Of a stretch of 64,000 nt of DNA, positions 3,250-45,679 are shown in pieces. The translations under genes and the position numbers were made by a program. The DNA is from Apoderus coryli (taxonomy: Eukaryota > Arthropoda > Insecta > Coleoptera > Attelabidae): assembly GCA_911728435.2 (NCBI GenBank), contig OU452209.1, forward strand, positions 12,692,869 to 12,756,868, written 5' to 3'. Position 1 is the stretch's first letter, and every line of letters starts with the position of its first letter. Under the pieces are notes generated by a model. That model saw only the letters and a program-made list of their open reading frames with translations, made no database searches and was not told where the DNA came from.

Positions 3250-4330
3250 GATCGATTTGTTGTGATTTGTGCATGAGAGCACAATACAAATTAGTTATAC
3301 ATTCAATATCACTAAATTCTTTGGTAACACGAAACAAAAAGCCAAGCATGCGTAGTGCATCCCGGGTAATACTTTGATTATGATAATTAAATGACAATTC
3401 AGTGTCGACGTAAACTCCAAGATCCCTGACAACATTACAACACTCAAGCGCAGTGTCACCCAGCTGATAGCAATATTCAAAAACAGTTTGTGATTTCGAA
3501 AATATGACAAACTTACATTTATTAATATTTAAAGGCAATTTATTTTAGTGACACCAATCTTCAAGCTTAGATAAGTCGCGCTGCAACAATATGCAATCCG
3601 AAGTGTCTCGAATAACACGATACAAATTCAGATCGTCTGCAAACTTCAAATGGTTGCTTGTAAGTTCCTGGGATATGTCATTAATGAAAATTGAAAATAT
3701 TAATGGTGCCAAACAGCTGCCCTGAGGCGCTCCGCTGGTGGGTGTGAAAGTTTCTGATTTATGAACATTGTATTCGACATAGTGTTGTCGATCAGACAAG
3801 TAGGGAGCAAAAAACGTTAAAAGATCCTCATGAAAACCCAACCTCGACATTTTCCGGAGGACAAGCCAATAATTCAGCTTATCGAAAGCCGTCGAAAAAT
3901 CCTTATAAATCGCATCGATCCGCACACCCTCTCCGAGGGCACGAAATACATCCTCTAGAAAATAGGTTAGGTTGGTTACTGTAGTGCCTGGAAAAAAACC
4001 GTGCTGCTGTGGATCAATCTGATGCTTAATTTGAGTAAATATTTTTCGGTGTAATGCCGCTTCAAAAACCTTCGACAAGTTGGGCAGGAGCGAGACTGGC
4101 CTATAATTTTCAACATGATCATTCTCAGCAGATTTATGGATTGGGCAAATGCGGGAGATTTTCCAAGCTTTTGGGAATATATTGAATCCCAGAGACCTAT
4201 TAAACAGAGTATGTAGTGGCACGGCGAAAACAGACGCATAATCTCGTAAAATGAAAACCGGGATGTCATCTGGTCCCGAAGTCATTTTGGGCTTTAATTG
4301 TTTGAGCGACATGAGAATATCATCGATATC
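3250..4330 (-). mobile_element. jockey-like non-LTR retrotransposon reverse transcriptase, 5'- and 3'-truncated
   Basis: A 255-codon ORF (4312-3545) shows the RT palm in order: TSGPDDIP (residues 11-18), ENYRPVSLLP (68-77), QHGFFPG, KDFSTAFD (137-144), GAPQGSCLAP (194-203) and the catalytic FADD (224-227). A single in-frame TAA at 3545-3547 (probably from CAA) separates it from a 97-codon continuation with the thumb sequence VRDLGVYVD. The 5' side ends near 4330 in simple AT-rich DNA. The 3' side ends near 3250, where the expected conserved C-terminus is lost. Because the only interior lesion in about 350 codons is one stop, this is one of the younger LINE copies in the window. Confidence 0.9.
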
Positions 4331-5405
4331 AACTGGATATTACTACAATATTTCCAGCTGATTGTTCGTTATTTTATTTGTTATTTTATTTAAATAAATA
4401 TATATATATACTAAATAAATATAGGAAATTTATTAAGCCAAATCAAATTTATTTATGATAATTGTCGTAATTTCCAGCGATGAGGATTTTGGCATTGTTG
4501 TCAGATTTAGTTTAAGCTGGTATAAAAATGAACTATATTTAAGAACGTTAATATTTTTGTAAAAATAAAATAAACCTTGCCTAATTTAGGTTTCCGGGTT
4601 AATTACGCATTTGGACTTGGGTTGGGGGTATAAATAGATGTCGGATTGCTCGATTGATTTCGGTATTACGCAATTAATGCGTACGTGACTGACGATGGTG
4701 AAAATTTTCAAATAAAATGTGGCATCCGTGGTTTTTGTAATTTTTCTTAGGTGTTGTCAAATTTTGAATGAATTGAATTGCATGAAATATAATTAATATG
4801 GAATTTTTTCAATAATCAAATTATTTTAGCAAAAGTAAAATAAAATAAACTTGGGGAAATTGAGTTTATGTTTAAATTAGCATCTTCACGTGTTTCGGAT
4901 GCAAATAGATTTCGGATTAACTACGCTATTGCGGAAATAATAAGTACGAGGCGTAGGATAGAGATAATTTCAAAGACAGCAAAGCATTGTGAGTAGGTAT
5001 ATTGTTTAACCGAGTAGATTCCATAATAAAAACACACAAATCTGTTTTCTTTTCTACTGACTTTACTTTAATGAAAAATGTGACGACATGGGAACTATTT
5101 TAAAAATGTTTCCCTTCAAAGAAGCCTCAACAAAAGTAAACGTTGCAGTGCGCTGACTATTTAAACGTGTGTTAAAACACATGGCATATTTTACACTTGT
5201 TTTGATTGTCAGAAATCCTAGCCTAGGCTTTACCCTGTTTTCGTTGAAGATTACAGTGAATAAGGGCTTACACAATTTATATTTCTTGATTTGTCTCGTA
5301 CACGCCGACAATGAACTATTGAACACAGGAGTGAACGGTATCTATCTACGTGTACGCGATAATTGTGACGTTTTAACCCATAATGGCGACATGCGCGACG
5401 AGATG
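4331..5405. other. AT-rich region with two diverged copies of one repeat
   Basis: No coding signal. Segments near 4560-4720 and 4830-4970 look like diverged direct copies: each has a run of AATAAA-type A/T followed by an 'AATAGATxTCGGAT' block and a 'TACGxxATTxxG' block. The alignment is by eye and rough. Confidence 0.3.
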
Positions 5406-14099: not shown

Positions 14100-15020
14100 A
14101 AGATTAACTATATAGAGCCTGTTAGGCTATTATACTTAAAAAAGAACGATCTGATTTACCCGGGCTCTGCATCGAATAAGCCTATTTTGGACACTCAATC
14201 TTATGCTGGAACCCCCAAACCCAATATCATATCTCAGTCTGCTCTCCACCAGAGCATAGTACAAATCCAGCAACTGGCCCATCTCCCCAACACCGACCTG
14301 AGACTGGTCATTGATCTTTGGCACGAAAATATCACAATGCTGATGCCACGTAAGTGTTTCATCAACCGTGAGTCCAAGAAAAGTTGCCATTTTAGCTCTC
14401 TCCAGAAGAACCTCATCAGGGCAAACAGCCAAGTGAGCATTATTCCCATTCTAATAGGTGCGAAAACGGATATAACACGTCTTGTTTCGGTTGAAGTAGA
14501 GAGAAACCAATCCGACATACAACTGTAAACACTCTGGCACTTACCCTTCAACAGGTCTAAACGTCCATTCTTTACCGATGCCAAGGCAGTAGTCTCATCT
14601 GCATCCTCGACCAAAGAGGCGTCTGGTAAGCATCGCGGTAAATCGTTGGTATACAACACAAATTGCAGGGGACACAGCATAGATCCCTGAAGCACCCCAG
14701 ATCATAGGATTCTGATAGGACAGCTCGACAAACTGTTATCTGTCCGTCAGATAACTCTCCAGGTAACACAGTGCCGGATCCCGTGCACCATAGTGTCCGA
14801 GTCTCTCCAATAGGGTCGTACTCAATCAAAAGCACAACGCAGGTCGCGGAATATTCCCACCGGACGTCTACCGTAATCAAGGATATCAAAAAGCTTTGAG
14901 AAAAAAGTCTGCAAAGCCGTAATATTAGACCGATCAGGTGGAAAACCGTGTCGAAAAAATCTTGAGGGCTCTCGAGCATACAGAATTCAAATATTTTTGA
15001 AAAGCTACTAGTCAATGCTA
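14100..15020 (-). mobile_element. non-LTR retrotransposon reverse transcriptase, frameshifted
   Basis: Minus strand in several frames: GIFRDLRCAFD (RT motif A region, about 14860), a degraded GVLQGSMLCPLQFVLYTNDL block (about 14700-14640), EDADETTALAS in place of a YADD block (about 14610), MSDWFLS, then FLGLTVDETLTWHQH and LVESRLRYDIGFGG (14400-14200). The order matches a LINE RT from palm to thumb. The catalytic YADD is destroyed and at least three frameshifts are present. Confidence 0.8.
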
Positions 15021-16249
15021 TCGTACGGTACTTCTCTATTTTAGTTTGCTCATGATACAGTAATTTCTAGTTGAAATCTCGTTTATTCTCTATCTAGGGT
15101 ATTGATATGAGCTTACAGCTACTTTATAGGAGCCACTCAGTATAACTTATGTATAGCGGGTACATCAGCGACGCTTACCGCATCTGCTCTAATATCTTTA
15201 ACGCTTTTTCAAAACCACGTAAATTGCTTTTATATGAGTTTCCCACTCTAAGGTGTCTATTTTTAAACGCATTTTCTGAACATCAGAATGATTGATGTGG
15301 GGGTGAGCTTTTGTTTTATTTCTTCTCTGAGACTGGGTAGGTGTTACTGTACTTTGTTTTTTCTTAATACGTGTACCCTGGACTTGATTGTCATTTAAAA
15401 GCTCTGCAGCTTTAATTAATATTCATATGTATTTTACTTATTTTTGACCGTTCACATCAAATAAATTTTAATATCTAATTTGATAGAATAATGTTTATAA
15501 AGGGCTGATTGATCCTTGAATATTTTGTTAGTTTTAGAGTTTTTTTTTGAGCTATTTCAGTTTATTTAAAAAAAATAGAATTTTAATAATTAAATTAATA
15601 ATAATAATAACCTTAACAAATCAAACAAATATGTCATCGAAAATTTCATAAAATCCAATCTAGTGATTGGTTGATTTCTATAAAGAAAACTGGCACCGTA
15701 GCCATTGAGTGAATTGTTTGCGTGCACGCAAGTAGGGATGAACACGTTTAAAAGCAATTTCAAATAAACAAATCAATGTAACTTTGCGACCCCGTAAATA
15801 TTCAAATAACCCCCTCAGTTTGTGTAATCATTTTGCCACATTCAGATGACTAGCGGCGTAGATACAAGTAGTTCCTTTAAATAATTGTAGAAAAAAAATA
15901 GGAGGGTACTACGCAAAACCAAAAGTTCTCTTTTTCTCTAGCCCATTCAATTTAAAACAAAAAGCGCCTTATGGTATTTTTTCATATCTCGTACAATTTT
16001 GTCGTAATTTTGAAATTTCTAAAGTACTGCAAAAGGGATTATGTTGGTATTTAAAATAAACTAAATACCATTTGATTGTTTAAGGTGACATCTAAATATT
16101 TCGAAGAAAACCCAATTGTATACTGTTAAGAAACTAGTGAAACAAATTCTAAGATATCGCGCGTTTTCCAATGACACATTTCAATCTGCGATTGGTAAGA
16201 ACCAATAGGACATACATGCCGGATTTTGCTAGTAAACTGTAGATTGTGC
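15021..16249. other. no gene recognised
   Basis: AT-rich DNA, with an AAT-rich simple stretch near 15590-15611. It probably includes the noncoding flank of the transposase copy that begins near 16250. No coding frame supported. Confidence 0.4.
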
Positions 16250-17000: not shown

Positions 17001-17667
17001 CAGGAGCCATTTTTGGTCTTTATTAACAGTGAGTTACCCAATAGTCTCAACACAATTTAAGACACAGTCTACAGTTTCCCACGACTTTTTTTTAAGGGAA
17101 AATATTTCTTAACTTTTCATAGGACTAAACATACACCGCACTGCATTAGCTCCAAAATCGTCGTTCAAGTTTACCTGGCAAATCTCAGTGCTTATAATTA
17201 CAAGCAACTATACAATGCTTCAAAGTTTGAACAGCTACTCTGAGAAAGTTTAAGTTTACGTTCGGTAGTTAGCAATTATCGTTTTATATAATGTATGCAT
17301 AATATATACACACGTAAATACAGCTATTAGCTTCTTATCACGATTTAGCAATAATGTATTTTCAGTATCAGTATTTAGTTAAACTTCCAACAATTTATTG
17401 TATATGCATACGAAGAGTTATTTTAAGTTAATTGCACGTTCTAGCTCTTTGTTCGTAAATATGTATTGTACAGTTAAATTTGTTTTAAAAGTCCTGAACA
17501 TTGTGTAATATAATTTCGCAATAATGTTTAACTAGTTTTAGTTTTGTAAATCTATACTCAGTGGCATTGAAACGAATAATTTTTTGAACCTGAACTTGAA
17601 CCAATGTGGTAGATTTACGTCGAGAATTAAACGATAACATTTGCAATAAATTTACGCGTTGTGTATA
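17001..17667. other. no gene recognised
   Basis: AT-rich DNA between the transposase relic and the left terminal repeat of the next element. An ORF at 17799-17485 crosses the element boundary and is probably chance. Confidence 0.4.
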
Positions 17668-20600
17668 CTGCCCTGTTAATTCAAATGACCGTATCTTTTT
17701 GATATATATTGATATATATTGATATATATATATTGGGGTTAATTGGTAGAGCATACTCCGTGTGAACTTCCCCCTTTTTTTGACAATTTTTTGGTACATT
17801 AAGATATAGAATTATACATTTTCTGTTTTTTTTTGTCAAAAAATAAAGGCATTATTATTATTATTATTATTATATTTGAACGTGAGAAAAATCGATTTTT
17901 CTATTTTTTTGTAGGCCGTCCTGGTTTTCGAAAAATTTGACGCATTTTTTTAATGAGTGCTATTAAAATGGTACTTGTTTTTTATTACAAATTATAATAC
18001 ACCACAAAGTAGAAATAATCATACTTTTGACAGATACGCCTTTTTCATCTAACATTGTTTAAGCGACTTCTATATTCAAAGAGACGTAACTACATGACTT
18101 AATGGAATATATTTATTTATATTTTGATAACCTGTGTAACAAAATAAACATATTTATGCAGATTTATAAATAAAACTAAAATATGATTTATGTAATATAT
18201 TTGAACAAAAAAAAAACCAAATGGAACTCCACAACTTAAAAAATTATAATTTATCTAGTAAGTAACAACATGAGAAAACCTAGGTAGCCGAAATTAATGT
18301 TGGGAGAGTCTTACAGTTATTACAATTAATTGTCATCAATTGATTCTTGATTATTATTAACTGGAATACTTTCCCAGAATTTCAGTCGATTCTCTGGAAT
18401 TATGGGACAAAGTTTTTGGATTATTGCTTCTTTTCTCTCAACTGTTATCCCGCGTGGTTCACTTTTAATATCAGGTTTTCTTATGCCACTCTTATGACAA
18501 TTAGCTTTTAAAAAATTAATAACATTAACTGGGCCATCAAAACTAGTTTTATAGGATAACGTGTTTACACCTCTGGTGAACTTAACTTCCACCATTCCAT
18601 TGAGATAGGGTCGCGGAACTAGCCTTGTTAACTTATACTTAGATGACTCATCTTTCCATAGGTAAAAATCGTCAACTGCCATTTCTATTACTTCGGTATT
18701 ATGCGATGACTTTCTAACCGCATCAACAAAATCGTAAACCTTACCTTTTCGTTTAAGCGACTACTCTACTCTATGATGAAATGAGTCAGCTGCCATAAAA
18801 GTATGTCCAGACTCAAAATCTCTCAGGATAATAGTTTTGACGTTAAGTTCACCTGAATTTACAGCGTAAACAAAATATGTGTACAAACACCAATTTTTGT
18901 TCTGGCCTGAACAGTTATCCAACCAAATTACGACATTCTCTAAATCCCTGATTTTCTTTAAAAAAGCAAAAAAGGTGCTGACGATGTCTTCTTTCTTCCG
19001 ACCAGCGATAGCCTCATGCCACAGTACAGCAACAGGAGGGTATTTTGAAGTACCAGCAGGGACAAAACTTTCATTAAATGCAATAATTCTTGGCGTGAAC
19101 AGTATTTCTTTAAATGTATCGCATCGTGGAAGCATGATCACCTAGAGAAATATACATTTCTGTTATAGTTATAATACTAAAATTGAGAAATCATAAATTC
19201 GTACCTTCTGCAAGTCAGCTGTGTAGACTCGTGAATTGCTTGAAGTTTTGGAATCTAAAATATACATTTCTCTGGCCCTTGCATATTTCTGTTTGTGATT
19301 TTTGTAAGAGTCACACTCAAGACAAGCAAGATCATCTGTATCTAACATATGTGTGGTTTGTTTTCTATGAATTTTATACTTCTCGCAACTAAAACATTCT
19401 TCATGCCCAAGCTTCGCAAATGATACTTTCATTTCATCAACAATTTGACGATATAAAGAGTACGAGCAGAAGATATTGTATTTTGCTTTAAAACATTCAT
19501 ACATCAACTTAATGTTCACGTCACTTGGCAGATATAATCGGTTCGGTGCATGTTCTCGTCTATAATGTGATGTTGTAGGATTGTAGGACTTTATATGACT
19601 TATAATTAGTTCCCTATCAAACTTCTTCGAACTACCACCCCTTTTATCTTTTTCAGGTTTAAGTGATAAGTGTGAATACTTTAGAACGGTCCTAAGGGGC
19701 TTATCATTTTTTTCATGATGTCCCAAAGTTGTTAAATAAAATATTTTACAGACATCTTGATATCCACCTTCTGAATCTTTTAATCTATAACTAAAGGTGT
19801 ACAAGCGTCTAGATTCCTCTGAATATCCCGTTGTGGATCGTTTTTTCGGTATTTTTGAAATTTAACTTAGGTAAAAACTTTTCTGTTCTTCAGATGATAG
19901 ATTCCAGAACTGGTTATTTATATCCTGGCGGCGAAGACTTGAAATTTTGTTGTTGCTATTTTTCCTACAATTTCCTGCAGAGCTGCTGGTTATTTTGTGT
20001 TTGCTAATGAGTTTTTGCTTTTTATTTGCACGTCGTTCCGTCACACTTTCTTCTATTATTCTTCTTTTTCTAGGCAGTCCGCTTTTAGTTAATGTGTTCC
20101 TTTCTGATTTATCTACTGCATTCTGAACAAGATTCTCAATAATCTTGGAAATAAAGTGCACTTTGAGTCAGAATCAACAGAAATATTTTTGCAAACATTA
20201 ATGGAATTTTCATTATAATTATCGACTTTTGTTGTGCTTGATGGAGCTTTTCAAACAATGTCGTTAATTATTGTTATTTTCTTAGCAATTTTTTTTGTCA
20301 GTTTTTAGTTCTGACTTCCGAGACCCTTGGCTAGAGTTTGAACTAGGCGACGAAGGGATATAATCCTTGTCCCTGTCATCAGATACGTCTGATTCAGCTT
20401 CCGAAGCAACTTCCTCGAATATTTCGTAATTTTCTTTTCTAGGGATGGATAGAGCCAGGTCTAGCAACATTTTACCACGAGATTGTTTCTAAAAAAAATT
20501 TCTTATTCAGAGACTTGCACTAGATAAGTAAATAATATTTTTGGTCATGAAAGTTTTTAGTTGCAAATAGTGCTTCTCCGTTTAGTACGCGCACGCATCT

Positions 20601-21087
20601 TTTTATGAACGTTTAAGTCATTGCCTACGAAACATACCCAAATAAATAAGTAATTAATTTGTACTTACCATTTTTCAAATGAGTTTTCTTCACATTTGCA
20701 AAGAACTCTTTGCGACAACACATCACAATTAATAATAGTTTCGTTGGAATTTAAATATGTAAACAAAAATTATAGGTTAGAATTTAAAGTGACAGGTCTC
20801 ATAGCGGCAGTAACTGCAAGCAGCCTAAAACGAAATGTTAGGTGGAAAAGCCGCATCTGCAGTTACGCCTTTTATCAGTAACATTTGTAGTTGCTGCTTT
20901 TCGATTTAATAAAAATCGAGAAAAATCACTTACGCCCATATTTCTAAGCGAGATATCTTGGGTTTTATCGAAGATACGGCCATCAAAGTTACAGACATGG
21001 ATAAAGAATTCATTGTTGCCTTGTGTACTGGTCATATCTCTATTTCAAGGAATATTGTAGTTACGGCCATTTGAATTAACAGGGCAG
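17668..21087 (-). mobile_element. 3.42-kb TIR element carrying a DUF7869-type gene
   Basis: The left end 17668-17695 and the complement of the right end 21087-21060 agree at 26 of 28 bases, starting CTGCCCTGTTAATTCAAATG. Both are flanked by TATA (17664-17667 and 21088-21091), consistent with a 4-bp (or TA) target-site duplication. The only gene inside is the minus-strand DUF7869-like pseudogene 18326-20671. The right 250 bp contain several GTTAC/GTAAC-centred subterminal motifs (GGCCGTAAC, GGCGTAAC, GCAGTAAC). A (GATATATATT)n stretch lies just inside the left end at 17700-17733. The layout suggests a DNA transposon whose candidate transposase is this protein. The superfamily is not one I can name. 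Confidence 0.75.
18326..20671 (-). pseudogene. DUF7869-type family protein, intron-containing and broken
   Basis: Exon 1 ends exactly with ATG at 20671-20669, followed by a GTAAGTAC donor. Intron 1 (20668-20489) ends in a T8-AG acceptor. Exon 2 opens with KQSRGKMLLDLAL and an acidic Ser-rich region. Then come a basic segment, a DKRGGSSKKF block, paired C..C...H modules (CFSCEKYKIHR and CLECDSYKNHK), and VYTADLQK at the exon 2 end. Intron 2 (19204-19142, 63 bp, GT-AG) joins in phase to VIMLPRCD. The last part holds IWLDNCSGQNKNW and DSFHHRVE. Possible DDE-like residues: Asp 19216-19214, Asp 18919-18917, Glu 18766-18764 (spacing 77 and 50), which is inference. Damage: about two frameshifts near 20285 and 20160, a TGA near 20233, TAA at 19864-19862 and TAG at 18763-18761. 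The family name is from memory of the motif order. Confidence 0.7.
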
Positions 21088-21819
21088 TATACTCCTCAAT
21101 AGTTGTGAATAAATTATTTTTTTATTTTTCTACACGTGTCAAATAAACAATTAAAATAAGACCAACAACAATCAGAATATTTCCAATTTTTTAAAACCCA
21201 TGAAAAACAATACATATTGTTGTAAAAACAGATATGGCAAAATTACGAAAAATTATAAAAATTCTGTTAATTAAAATTTTGACCATCAAAACTGCCATAG
21301 CAGTTATCACAGATGCCTGGAAATCTGATTTGGGGACAGGATTCTCAGTATACTATAAGATTAAACAAGATATCGCTATTTTTACTACGGAACAACAACG
21401 CAATAATTGTATTGACTGCGATTAAAAAATGGACAACCCATTCTACTCCTATCATAATAAATATTGTGACCTTGCTGAAACACCTTACAAACTTCACCCA
21501 ACAATCCAAAAGAATGACGATTGGCACAAAGGACACACTATGCCCCGTTGAATATACTCTGTTATTTCTAGATTAGAATTCAATCACGGCACTTGTTTAA
21601 GCTGGGCTCGAATAGTGAATATAAGTGCGTAGGCGTGGTGAAATAGGTTACATCTTCAACTATTCAAATGCATAAATTTCCAAAATAATGGTACAGATCT
21701 ATCAGAGAAAATCATTCGTCTTGGTTTTCAATCTGCTCTACACATAAACAATATCTTGGCCTCAAATAGTATCGACGTTTTAAAGTTGATATGCAATTTC
21801 ATAGAACGTTGAAAAATTG
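21088..21819. other. no gene recognised
   Basis: AT-rich. Part of it (from about 21640) may be the degraded 5' portion of the following LINE, but I cannot confirm it. Confidence 0.35.
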
Positions 21820-22590
21820 TCAGGATCGCAATCAAGCAATGAATATTTTCTACAATAAAATGTACCTATATATATTTGATAACTGTATCCCCAAGCAAAG
21901 TTGAATAAGAAAAAATATCCTCCCTGGTTCACCCCCGAAATTATACTGAACATAAAATCAAAAGAAAGAAGCCTAAGAAATAAAAAAAAAAACAAATCCA
22001 CAACAGTCTCGCGGATTACACACACCTTAGAGCTAAAATAAAGAGAGATATTAAACCTGCATATAGACAGTATAATTCTGGATTTGAAAGTACACTACAA
22101 GAAAATCCAAATTAGTTCTGGAACTTTATAAATTCAAAGCGCAAGAATTGTGTAGATTCGCCTTTTGAGCTACATTTAGGAGACGAGACTTACTGTGGTG
22201 CAGGGGAGATTACTCAATCTTTTGCCAATTATTACGAAAAAGTGTATTCACGGGCACAAACGACAAACGTGTTCAGGGATGTGGATTTAAGTACAGAATC
22301 CTGCTTTTCAATAGAAAATATAAAAAAACTTAAGCCAAAGAAATGTGTAGAACACGATTTAATACCCAGATTCGTTCTAAAGGGCTGTAGTAAATTTCTA
22401 AGGGAACCCTTGCAAATAATCTTTAACTTATCCGTTAAAAAGCAGATGTTTCATGATCTCAAAATAGCAAGAATTACACCGATATTCAAAAATGGCGATC
22501 GATCCAATATTGAAAATTATCGACCTATTGTAATTATCTCTAATATATCTACTGTTTTTGAACTCATACTATCAGCTAAAATAAATAAAA
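21820..22590 (+). mobile_element. jockey-like LINE: endonuclease-RT linker and N-terminal RT
   Basis: Plus strand: PPWFTPEI near 21920 is the conserved linker after the endonuclease domain. Then ENPxxFWNFINSKRKNC, GEITQSFANYYEKVYS, and a 132-codon ORF (22242-22640) with KLKPKKCVEHDLIP, a PLQIIFNLSV stretch and the RT motif region ARITPIFKNGDRSNIENYRP. The copy stops at about 22585, before the palm motifs. One stop and several frameshifts lie in the linker half. Confidence 0.8.
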
Positions 22591-22639
22591 CTATTTATTT
22601 CATTATAATTTATAGGTCAGAACACTGTTCTCAACGATG

Positions 22640-22800
22640 AACTATTCACTTCATTACTGATTGTCTGTCCCTCTAATACGTAGGCTGTTTATATGGTTTT
22701 TCTCCTTTCTCGAACGCTTCCAGCAAATAGTAGTTTGTTTTACAAATTTCTGACACGCGTAAGTCCATTCCAGATCTACACTGTAAGAGAGGCACATTCT
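22640..22800 (-). mobile_element. LTR-like fragment related to the LTR at 49330-49670
   Basis: The segment 22683-22780 aligns by eye with 49523-49610: both read AGGCT..TTATAT, then TTTCTCGAAC, CTTCCAG and TCCATTC in the same order. In the minus orientation each includes a TATA-like ATATAAA. It is therefore probably a remnant of the same LTR family. No internal region is attached. Confidence 0.4.
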
Positions 22801-41865: not shown

Positions 41866-43290
41866 TAATAATAATAAAATAATAATAATAAAGCTCTTTA
41901 TTTTCAACAGGTAACAAGACCCACTTACAGAAAATTCAAATTCATTTTTAGAATAAAATTACAATTTGAAACTTAAATAAAAAACAAAAACGACAAATTC
42001 ACAATTATACAAATCAGTTAAAAATGCTAAATCTTATCAGTAAACAATTATAATTAAGTACAACGTTTTAAACAAAAATAATCAACCAAAAAAATTAAAC
42101 ATTCATGTGGCTCAAAATACCAGACAGAGAATCCACACCAATATCCGACCCCGATCAATAGTCATTAAAAACGGAGCAGATAAAATATACAGGGCTCTGC
42201 AGCAAAACATTGGATCTAGCCATGCTCAGATAAAAGGTGTTATCAGACCTCGACCAGTTCTAGGAATTCGAAACCGAAGACAGCCAAGAAGAAACGCACA
42301 ATCGATTTTATTATGCAATAAATTATACAAAAACCTGACGGAAGAGACCATTCGCCGCATCCACAAAGATGTAATGTCAAATGTTGAAAGCAGGACATCG
42401 TGATCTGCACCCCTCGCTGGATATACTCCAAACTCCCTAAAATATAAATACTTTACGAATCGCCTCTGCACAGACTCTAATGCACGTGCATGGCACTGAT
42501 ACAAGGGATTCCACACGATCGAACAATACTCAAGTCTAGCCCGCACAAATGAAAAATATAATAATTTAATGGTTGAAATATTTCTAAACTTTTTAGTGTT
42601 TCTGATCACAAACCCCAATATACGGGATGCAGATGCGGACAAGTGCTCATAGTGGAGAACAAAGGTTAAAGCTTCATCAAACCATACACCCAAGTCTCGA
42701 ACCTGCAAAAGTCTTTCAATGGGTACAGCTCCAATAGTGTAATTCCAAATTACTGGGGTTTTCACTCTGTGAAAGCTAACAACGTTACATTTAGGAATGT
42801 TCAAATAGAGCTTATTTTGATTGCACCAGTTGTCGACAACTCGCAGTGCGTTTTGGAGTACCACGCAGTCTTCTATGGAGTCAATCCTACAAAATATCTT
42901 TAGATCATCAGCATAAGCCAATTTGGGACATTCTATAATTTCAACAAGATCATTAATAAAGATGTTAAACAATAGTGGGCCAAGGTTTGATTCCTGTGGC
43001 ACACAATGCAATGTTGAAGCAAACTTTCTGGACTTATAACCTTCACACTCAACAAACTGCGTGCGATCGACAAGGTAAGATTCAAACAGCTTAACAAGCC
43101 CATTGGAAAAACCAATCCTATCTAAATGCTTCAAGAGTATATAATGGTCAATGCGGTCAAATGCCTTACGGAAATCCGTATATACCTACAACATCTACCT
43201 GAGATCGATCATCCAGGGCCTCACATATGCTATGTGAAAAGGAGGACAAGTTAGAAATGCATGCAATGAAGTCTCAAGAGAAATGTTGTG
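41866..43290 (-). mobile_element. jockey-like LINE, RT to 3' end with (TTA)n tail, 5'-truncated
   Basis: A 302-codon ORF (43134-42226) encodes the RT with YADD (residues 74-77) intact; the usual GVPQGS is degraded to CVPQES (44-49). Upstream in the same strand after one frameshift are YTDFRKAFDRIDHYILLKHL (motif A) and ICEALDDRSQVDVV, to about 43290. Downstream, one frameshift after ITPF, the C-terminus continues (FYLSMARSNVLLQSPVYFIC) to a TAA near 42093. A noncoding 3' region of about 200 bp ends in a TTATTATTA-type tail (41866-41893). Few lesions, so a relatively young insertion. Confidence 0.9.
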
Positions 43291-44277: not shown

Positions 44278-45679
44278 AAGTACTGATTTTTAATACACAC
44301 ATTAACTATTCATACATTGACGCACAAATTCTGGAGTCAGAAGCGATCGCCTTTGCTCTCTGAGAGCTACAATTGGCTAGCCAGCTATACAAATAAAATA
44401 CAACAATACGAATCACTGCCAATTTATCAAAGGGAATACGAAATATTCAAAAACACTCCAACAATTACAATCAAAACTAACTCCATGGACTGCGATAGTG
44501 ACTATCGCAGTATCTGGAGTCATTTGAAGGCTACTTGGAGAAATTATGAATATTTATATACAGATGGAACGATTATGGATGGAAAAACGGGTTTTGCGGT
44601 GTATCATCAGAATAGAAATTTGGAGAAGAAATTCAAACTACCATCTAATACATCAATCTTCACAGCAGAACTTGTAGCAATAAGAGAAGCGATTAGGTAC
44701 TGTATTGTATTTGAACATAATAATAAATTTGTTATTTTCTCGGACAGTCGTTCAGCAGTAGAAGCTATAAAGAAGGCTACCCAATTAAATGTTTCAAATT
44801 ATATTATTTTAGACATTCTGGAATTATATAATAAACTGTTGAACAATAACAAAATCTTAGAAATTGCTTGGATTAAATCACATGCTGGTATAAGTGGCAA
44901 CGAAAAAGCTGACATACTGGCCAAAGAAGCAACAAAAACAGGACAAATTATTAGAAACTTTAAATTACCAACAACTGACATTATACCTTTGGCCAAAAAG
45001 AAATTAAAAGTAAGTTGGCAACAGTTATACTCGCAGTCACAGACTGGTCAGAAATTCAAAATTCTAGAATCATGTATTCGGACAAAACCTTGGTTTTATA
45101 ATAATCAAAACAGAACGTTAATTAGGACCATATGTCGGCTTCGAAGTATCCATGCTCTATATCCAGCATATAAATATCGAATAGGATTGCAGCAATCAGA
45201 AAATTGTGAATGTGGAGAGATTGGTAGTATGGAACATGTAATATTCTAGTGTATTGATAAACAATGTCATATTAATGTATTATATAACCGTATTGTACAG
45301 GCGGGAGTTGCGCTCCCCACAAATGTAATGCAAATGTTGAAATGCAACAAACTTTATATACACATCTATGATTTTTTTGTAAATAGTCAAACAAAAATTT
45401 GAAAAAAAAATAATTATTATACTTACAAAAAAAAAACAAAAAAAAACCTGAATAATGATTTTGATAAAATTGAAACCAACATTATCTTATTTCATATTTT
45501 AACTAGGTAAGTTGAACAATTTCTGAATAGAAATGTTTTTTTGTATATAAAAGAAAAATGTAACAAGACCGATCATCGGTGTGTTCATGTTAGCGATATA
45601 AGTAACTCCTAAATTGGAGAGTTGGCCAGTTGGCTTTCGCCAGTGCCATTAACAAAAAAAAAAAAAAAGTACTGATTTT
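44278..45679 (+). mobile_element. LINE insertion with RNase H ORF, poly(A) and 13-bp target duplication
   Basis: AAGTACTGATTTT occurs at 44278-44290 and again at 45667-45679, directly after an A-run, so the insert is 44291-45666, 5'-truncated. Its 310-codon ORF (44317-45249) carries an RNase H domain with all catalytic residues visible: Asp83 (YTDGT), Glu118 (FTAELVAIREA), Asp143 (FSDSRSA), His189 (KSHAGISGNE) and Asp199. A C-terminal C.C......H zinc-type end (CECGEIGSMEHVIF) follows. A TAG at 45247-45249 interrupts the frame, which continues another 50 codons. The RT part is missing. Confidence 0.9.

Follow-up and report, generated by a model that had tools for sequence, protein, structure and literature searches.

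The Sola superfamily of DNA transposons reportedly goes back to Bao et al. in 2009. According to one account, Sola transposons have a transposase with three catalytic aspartates (DDD), produce 4-bp target-site duplications, are mostly 2-9 kb long and carry inverted repeats of 11-1124 bp (PMC10741241). For Sola2, a second paper gives A/T-rich AWWT duplications and one putative Sola2-type transposase of 888 residues (PMC3627910). Here we compare with these descriptions an element at positions 17668-21087 of a 64-kb stretch of Apoderus coryli DNA (the window, on contig C18), whose single gene encodes a protein with the Pfam domain DUF7869 (PF25273). We consider it quite likely that this stretch is a copy of a cut-and-paste DNA transposon with DUF7869 as its DDD transposase, most likely belonging to Sola and lying nearest to Sola2.

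The element is bounded by 28-bp terminal inverted repeats, on the left at 17668..17695 (plus strand, beginning CTGCCCTGTTAATTCAAATG...) and on the right at 21060..21087 (minus strand), which match at 26 of 28 positions and both recur in sibling copies, while the paired target-site duplications TATA stand just outside them (17664..17667 and 21088..21091). The inverted arms at 17663-17696 and 21059-21092 are 94% complementary, and a simple independent-base model predicts by chance 0.0003 such pairs no more than 6 kb apart in a 64-kb window. Thus, the ends with outer TATA noticed in the initial annotation are real. By searching the genome (428 Mb in 129 contigs) for TATA joined to 20 end bases, with up to 3 mismatches allowed, we obtained 22 matches, against 0 forward and 1 reverse for the reversed sequence used as control. 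These matches are both ends of nine copies (18 matches) and four single ends. All nine paired copies have identical 4-bp duplications made of A and T only, namely TATA (four copies), AATT (two copies), AATA, TATT and ATTA (one copy each). Each copy repeats the same four bases on its two sides, and two copies do so with AATT, in which TA does not occur; the duplicated unit is hence 4 bp and not TA. Copies were therefore found to share their ends as expected, but the expectation that they would always abut TATA or TA had to be replaced by a 4-bp rule, with TATA at only 4/9.

Long siblings are 95-97% identical to the window copy and shorter or older pieces 84-91%, while identity among three of the siblings is 99.2-99.6%. 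Three of the nine paired copies and one single-end match are derivatives shortened by internal deletions to about 2.0-2.3 kb. Three of these four (L012, L016 and L027) share an identical or almost identical deletion breakpoint, which would suit a non-autonomous subfamily mobilised in trans. The occurrence of these ends without most of the gene, which could have denoted a different family, is hence explained by deletion derivatives of the same one. A rearranged sibling, L008 (C20:12688153), lacks the last bases of the right end and, as read by eye, has AGTA on both outer sides.

Then, we compared the joined flanks of the nine copies with the genome, scoring 40 of 4256 candidates, with 86 matches listed. 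For the copy at C1:12165175-12168395, 54 of the 86 matches listed cross the junction at 82-89% identity, and these sites are unoccupied paralogous copies of a repeat. Eight of them were aligned, and in all eight the sequence continues through the insertion point, where it reads TATA, with no element present. The empty sites anticipated in the initial annotation thus exist for this copy, and for the other eight none was found among the matches listed. The same repeat also forms tandem-like runs with a spacing of ~330 bases at C11:25960973-25963451 and C11:9074473-9075930.

The gene lies on the minus strand. Its probable start codon (20669..20671) would end a short first exon, ATG/GTAAGT being read there and TTTTAG/AAA at the next exon, with a second intron probably at 20489-20668. 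The main upstream exon (19205..20488) encodes the cysteine-rich N-terminal modules and the first conserved aspartate, in DLQK (codon 19214-19216). It is followed by a putative 63-nt GT-AG intron (19142..19204), without which relatives read DLQK/VIMLPR, and by the exon at 18326..19141, which encodes two more acidic motifs, the second being WLDNCSGQNKN (aspartate codon 18917..18919) and the third ADSFHHRVE (aspartate codon 18785..18787), as well as the C-terminal part. The motifs given in the initial annotation (VYTADLQK, WLDNCSGQNKN and DSFHHRVE) are all present. However, the gene is interrupted by two stops (18761-18763 in the downstream exon and 19862-19864 in the upstream one) and by a break in the frame between positions 20282 and 20167, so that the window copy is a decayed, dead element and its gene a pseudogene. 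In the sibling L003, both main exons are open (442 and 274 residues), with the 63-nt GT-AG intron between them. The 3.4-kb length of the window copy includes a retroposon-like insert of ~167 bp with an (ATT)n tail (17705..17871), which is missing from the siblings, whose alignments skip from position 37 of the element straight to 205; five other long copies measure 3.0-3.3 kb. Elsewhere in the genome at least 27 places match only within about 26-213, and ~140 bp of the (ATT)n-tailed insert has 89-99% identity at 27 places among the matches listed.

A PF25273 profile search pointed to 380 candidate places in the genome, of which 150 were scored, all listed ones being over the cut-off, while the same search found none in 14 control genomes. 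We analyzed five further families, which were chosen for near-identical copies with findable ends and so do not sample the 150 scored places at random. The largest, F645 (protein P0122; ends GAAGCGYTCGGGGGAACAAGG...), is ~3.15 kb long with an open frame of 645 residues and has 23 copies (L035-L057) that are 99.9-100% identical across their shared part. Both ends could be read in all 23, and the duplications match in 22 of them (AATT in 16, ATAT in three, AAAT, ATTT and AACT in one each), L047 being the mismatch. This identity suggests very recent and possibly ongoing transposition. Matching duplications were also found in 8/8 copies of F760 (CGACGGGTGC...; ATAT and ATTT three times each, AATT and ATGT once), in 2/2 of F695 (CGTCGGCTTG...; ATTT and ATAT), in 2/2 of F885 (CGCTACCATA...; ATTT and AAAT) and in 2/2 of F497 (GAATCGGTGA...; both AATT). 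Altogether, matching 4-bp A/T-rich duplications occur in 36 of 37 copies of the five families, and in 45/46 copies with both ends read once the window family is included. Elements are about 2.4-4.0 kb long, with terminal repeats of 28 to about 46 bp. It had been put forward as a possible refutation that related genes elsewhere would lack the ends of the window copy. This is true of the other families, yet each of the six families examined has inverted repeats of its own. The proteins of the five other families exceed the DUF7869 cut-off and keep all three aspartates.

Because siblings share both ends and gene, deletion derivatives keep the ends, five more families repeat the arrangement and an RNase H fold is predicted, the DUF7869 protein is very probably the transposase of the element, as had been proposed. 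The AlphaFold models of two of the proteins contain an RNase H core resembling integrases and mariner transposase (Mos1, Metnase domain), and the acidic residues would sit on the corresponding strands and helix, judging from predicted secondary structure. Among homologues (P0121 numbering), aspartate is conserved at D428 in 237/239, at D527 in 234/234 and at D571 in 230/230. In the acidic set proposed initially, it is the third member, a glutamate, that is not supported as stated. The last core helix spans residues 569-584 in one model and 456-471 in the other, and its third residue is in each case the third aspartate, at the place where integrases have their catalytic glutamate. Alignments A1 and A3 show this aspartate without exception. 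By alignment and model, it is thus more likely to be the third catalytic acid, 43 residues on, than the glutamate 50 residues on, making the set DDD. Two aspartates and a glutamate (DDE) would be the rather doubtful alternative: Glu578 is found in 226/231 homologues and lies on the same helix two turns further, but it is missing from 5/231 and is replaced by lysine in the F497 protein.

Several observations weigh against the interpretation as a Sola-type DDD transposon. The window copy's own frames reach DUF7869 at an E value of 0.01 only, under the cut-off, and the sibling L003 lacks one cysteine pair present in the window copy and in L005, and may for that reason be non-functional. With Foldseek alone, no hit was obtained at E <= 0.001, Glu578 is nearly as conserved as the third aspartate, and catalysis, metal use, end binding and mobilisation in trans, like transposase activity itself, are predicted, the cutting chemistry and end binding from fold and conservation. 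At the junction, the unoccupied paralogues fall short of the joined flanks by 2-4 bases; hence the exact duplication is taken from the flanks and not from the paralogues, while the insertion site itself is confirmed. Finally, the most likely filing, with Sola and nearest Sola2, likens the elements to published descriptions and not to a Sola protein sequence, and unlike Sola2 the window family fits AWWT in 2/9 copies only, the other seven being A/T-only (TATA, AATA, TATT and ATTA).

This last point, together with the literature, bears on the possibility that the DUF7869 elements form a separate, undescribed DDD/DDE cut-and-paste superfamily, Sola-like only in duplication length and target. In its favour, DUF7869 is named in no open-licence paper searched, no relevant open-licence paper on QNKN or longer variants of the motif was among the matches listed, and listed relatives are nearly always named hypothetical, unnamed, uncharacterized or DUF7869 domain-containing. 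However, the predicted RNase H-like core with aspartate favoured over glutamate as third acid, the 4-bp A/T-rich duplications and the short inverted repeats and sizes, both inside the published ranges, match Sola and Sola2 as far as the available descriptions go, and AWWT is found in most copies of the five sister families (F645 21/23, F760 7/8, F695 2/2, F885 2/2 and F497 2/2). We therefore regard a separate superfamily as unlikely, and the undescribed transposon class proposed initially is not supported. Just as unlikely in our view is the broader proposal that DUF7869 and its relatives constitute a large, animal-wide and recently active DDD superfamily apart from Sola1-3, with a mollusc branch in which an OTU-type protease domain is fused to the transposase, and that its members are counted as host genes by current annotation. 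That the DUF7869 protein is instead a passenger, with an unrelated transposase mobilising the element in trans, would fit with a role that is only predicted and with the broken gene of the window copy. This seems very improbable, given that inspection of the element by eye revealed no second gene, that DUF7869, inverted repeats and 4-bp duplications recur together in six families with different ends, and that a DDE-type core is predicted with invariant or nearly invariant acids.

Other superfamilies were also considered. Mariner elements duplicate TA, and the AATT, ATTT and AAAT duplications found here hold no TA, which speaks against Tc1/mariner. The predicted core fold is shared with Tc1/mariner and retroviral integrases, but PDB and Pfam sequence searches with the element proteins scanned gave no match to any described transposase superfamily, and DUF7869 was the sole family over its cut-off in the Pfam scans. 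The likeness to Ginger and retroviral-type integrases is thus one of fold, the integrase core family giving no sequence match in these scans. piggyBac has in common with these elements a 4-bp duplication and a DDD transposase. It integrates at TTAA, according to one paper (PMC7351741), whereas TTAA is absent from the 45 matched duplications and no piggyBac match was found in the element proteins scanned by Pfam. No KDZ transposase match was found in these scans either; the only likeness to KDZ is a weak match to its CxC3 module in the DUF7869 protein P0247 of this genome (E 0.011, under the curated cut-off).

Taking a Sola-type DDD transposon as the preferred explanation, we propose that the single gene would produce a transposase of ~700 residues, with a cysteine-rich N-terminal half that probably binds the terminal repeats and the predicted RNase H-fold core of DUF7869. 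The three aspartates (in DLQK, WLDNCSGQNKN and ADSFHH) would hold two metal ions, as their conservation and the fold suggest. The transposase would cut both ends and excise the element, the ends would then be joined to phosphates of the two target strands at a 4-bp offset in A/T-rich DNA, and gap repair would produce the 4-bp duplication. Deletion derivatives would be mobilised in trans. The ends, the duplications, the linkage of the gene to them, the derivatives at other sites, the unoccupied sites of one copy and the conserved acids are observed.

A link between DUF7869 and transposition was not met in the open-licence literature searched and looks new. Six families of this one genome show DUF7869 linked to the ends of an element. 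By this linkage, insect and Hydra proteins that carry the annotation "DUF7869 domain-containing" or "uncharacterized LOC", and whose homologues occur in molluscs and one fish, are very probably transposases. A Pfam domain of unknown function thereby becomes an enzyme that can be tested, and many false host genes would be removed. With its 23 near-identical copies, F645 is perhaps still mobile and would be a natural subject for excision work.

Among the matches listed, the closest named protein relatives are from the beetles Ignelater, Photinus and Gonioctena. Exceptions to the uninformative names of listed relatives are two Ignelater proteins with a P-element domain, one mislabelled polymerase subunit and one OTU name. 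In the predicted beetle proteins P0001, P0003 and P0184, DUF7869 is joined to P-element (PF21787) or piggyBac (PF13843) transposase domains; these are probably chimeric gene predictions spanning neighbouring transposons. An OTU-type protease domain (PF02338) is found together with PF25273 in one predicted protein each of six metagenome contigs (P0266, P0267, P0305, P0323, P0327 and P0335), and with a profile-only DUF7869-like match in P0321 of Littorina and P0359 of Mytilus. P0362 has PF04843 alongside PF25273. Elsewhere in the window, open frames at 3545-4339, 14572-15066 (the least certain), 22116-22640, 42226-43185 and 44287-45249 resemble by eye pieces of reverse transcriptase or RNase H of non-long-terminal-repeat (non-LTR) retrotransposons.
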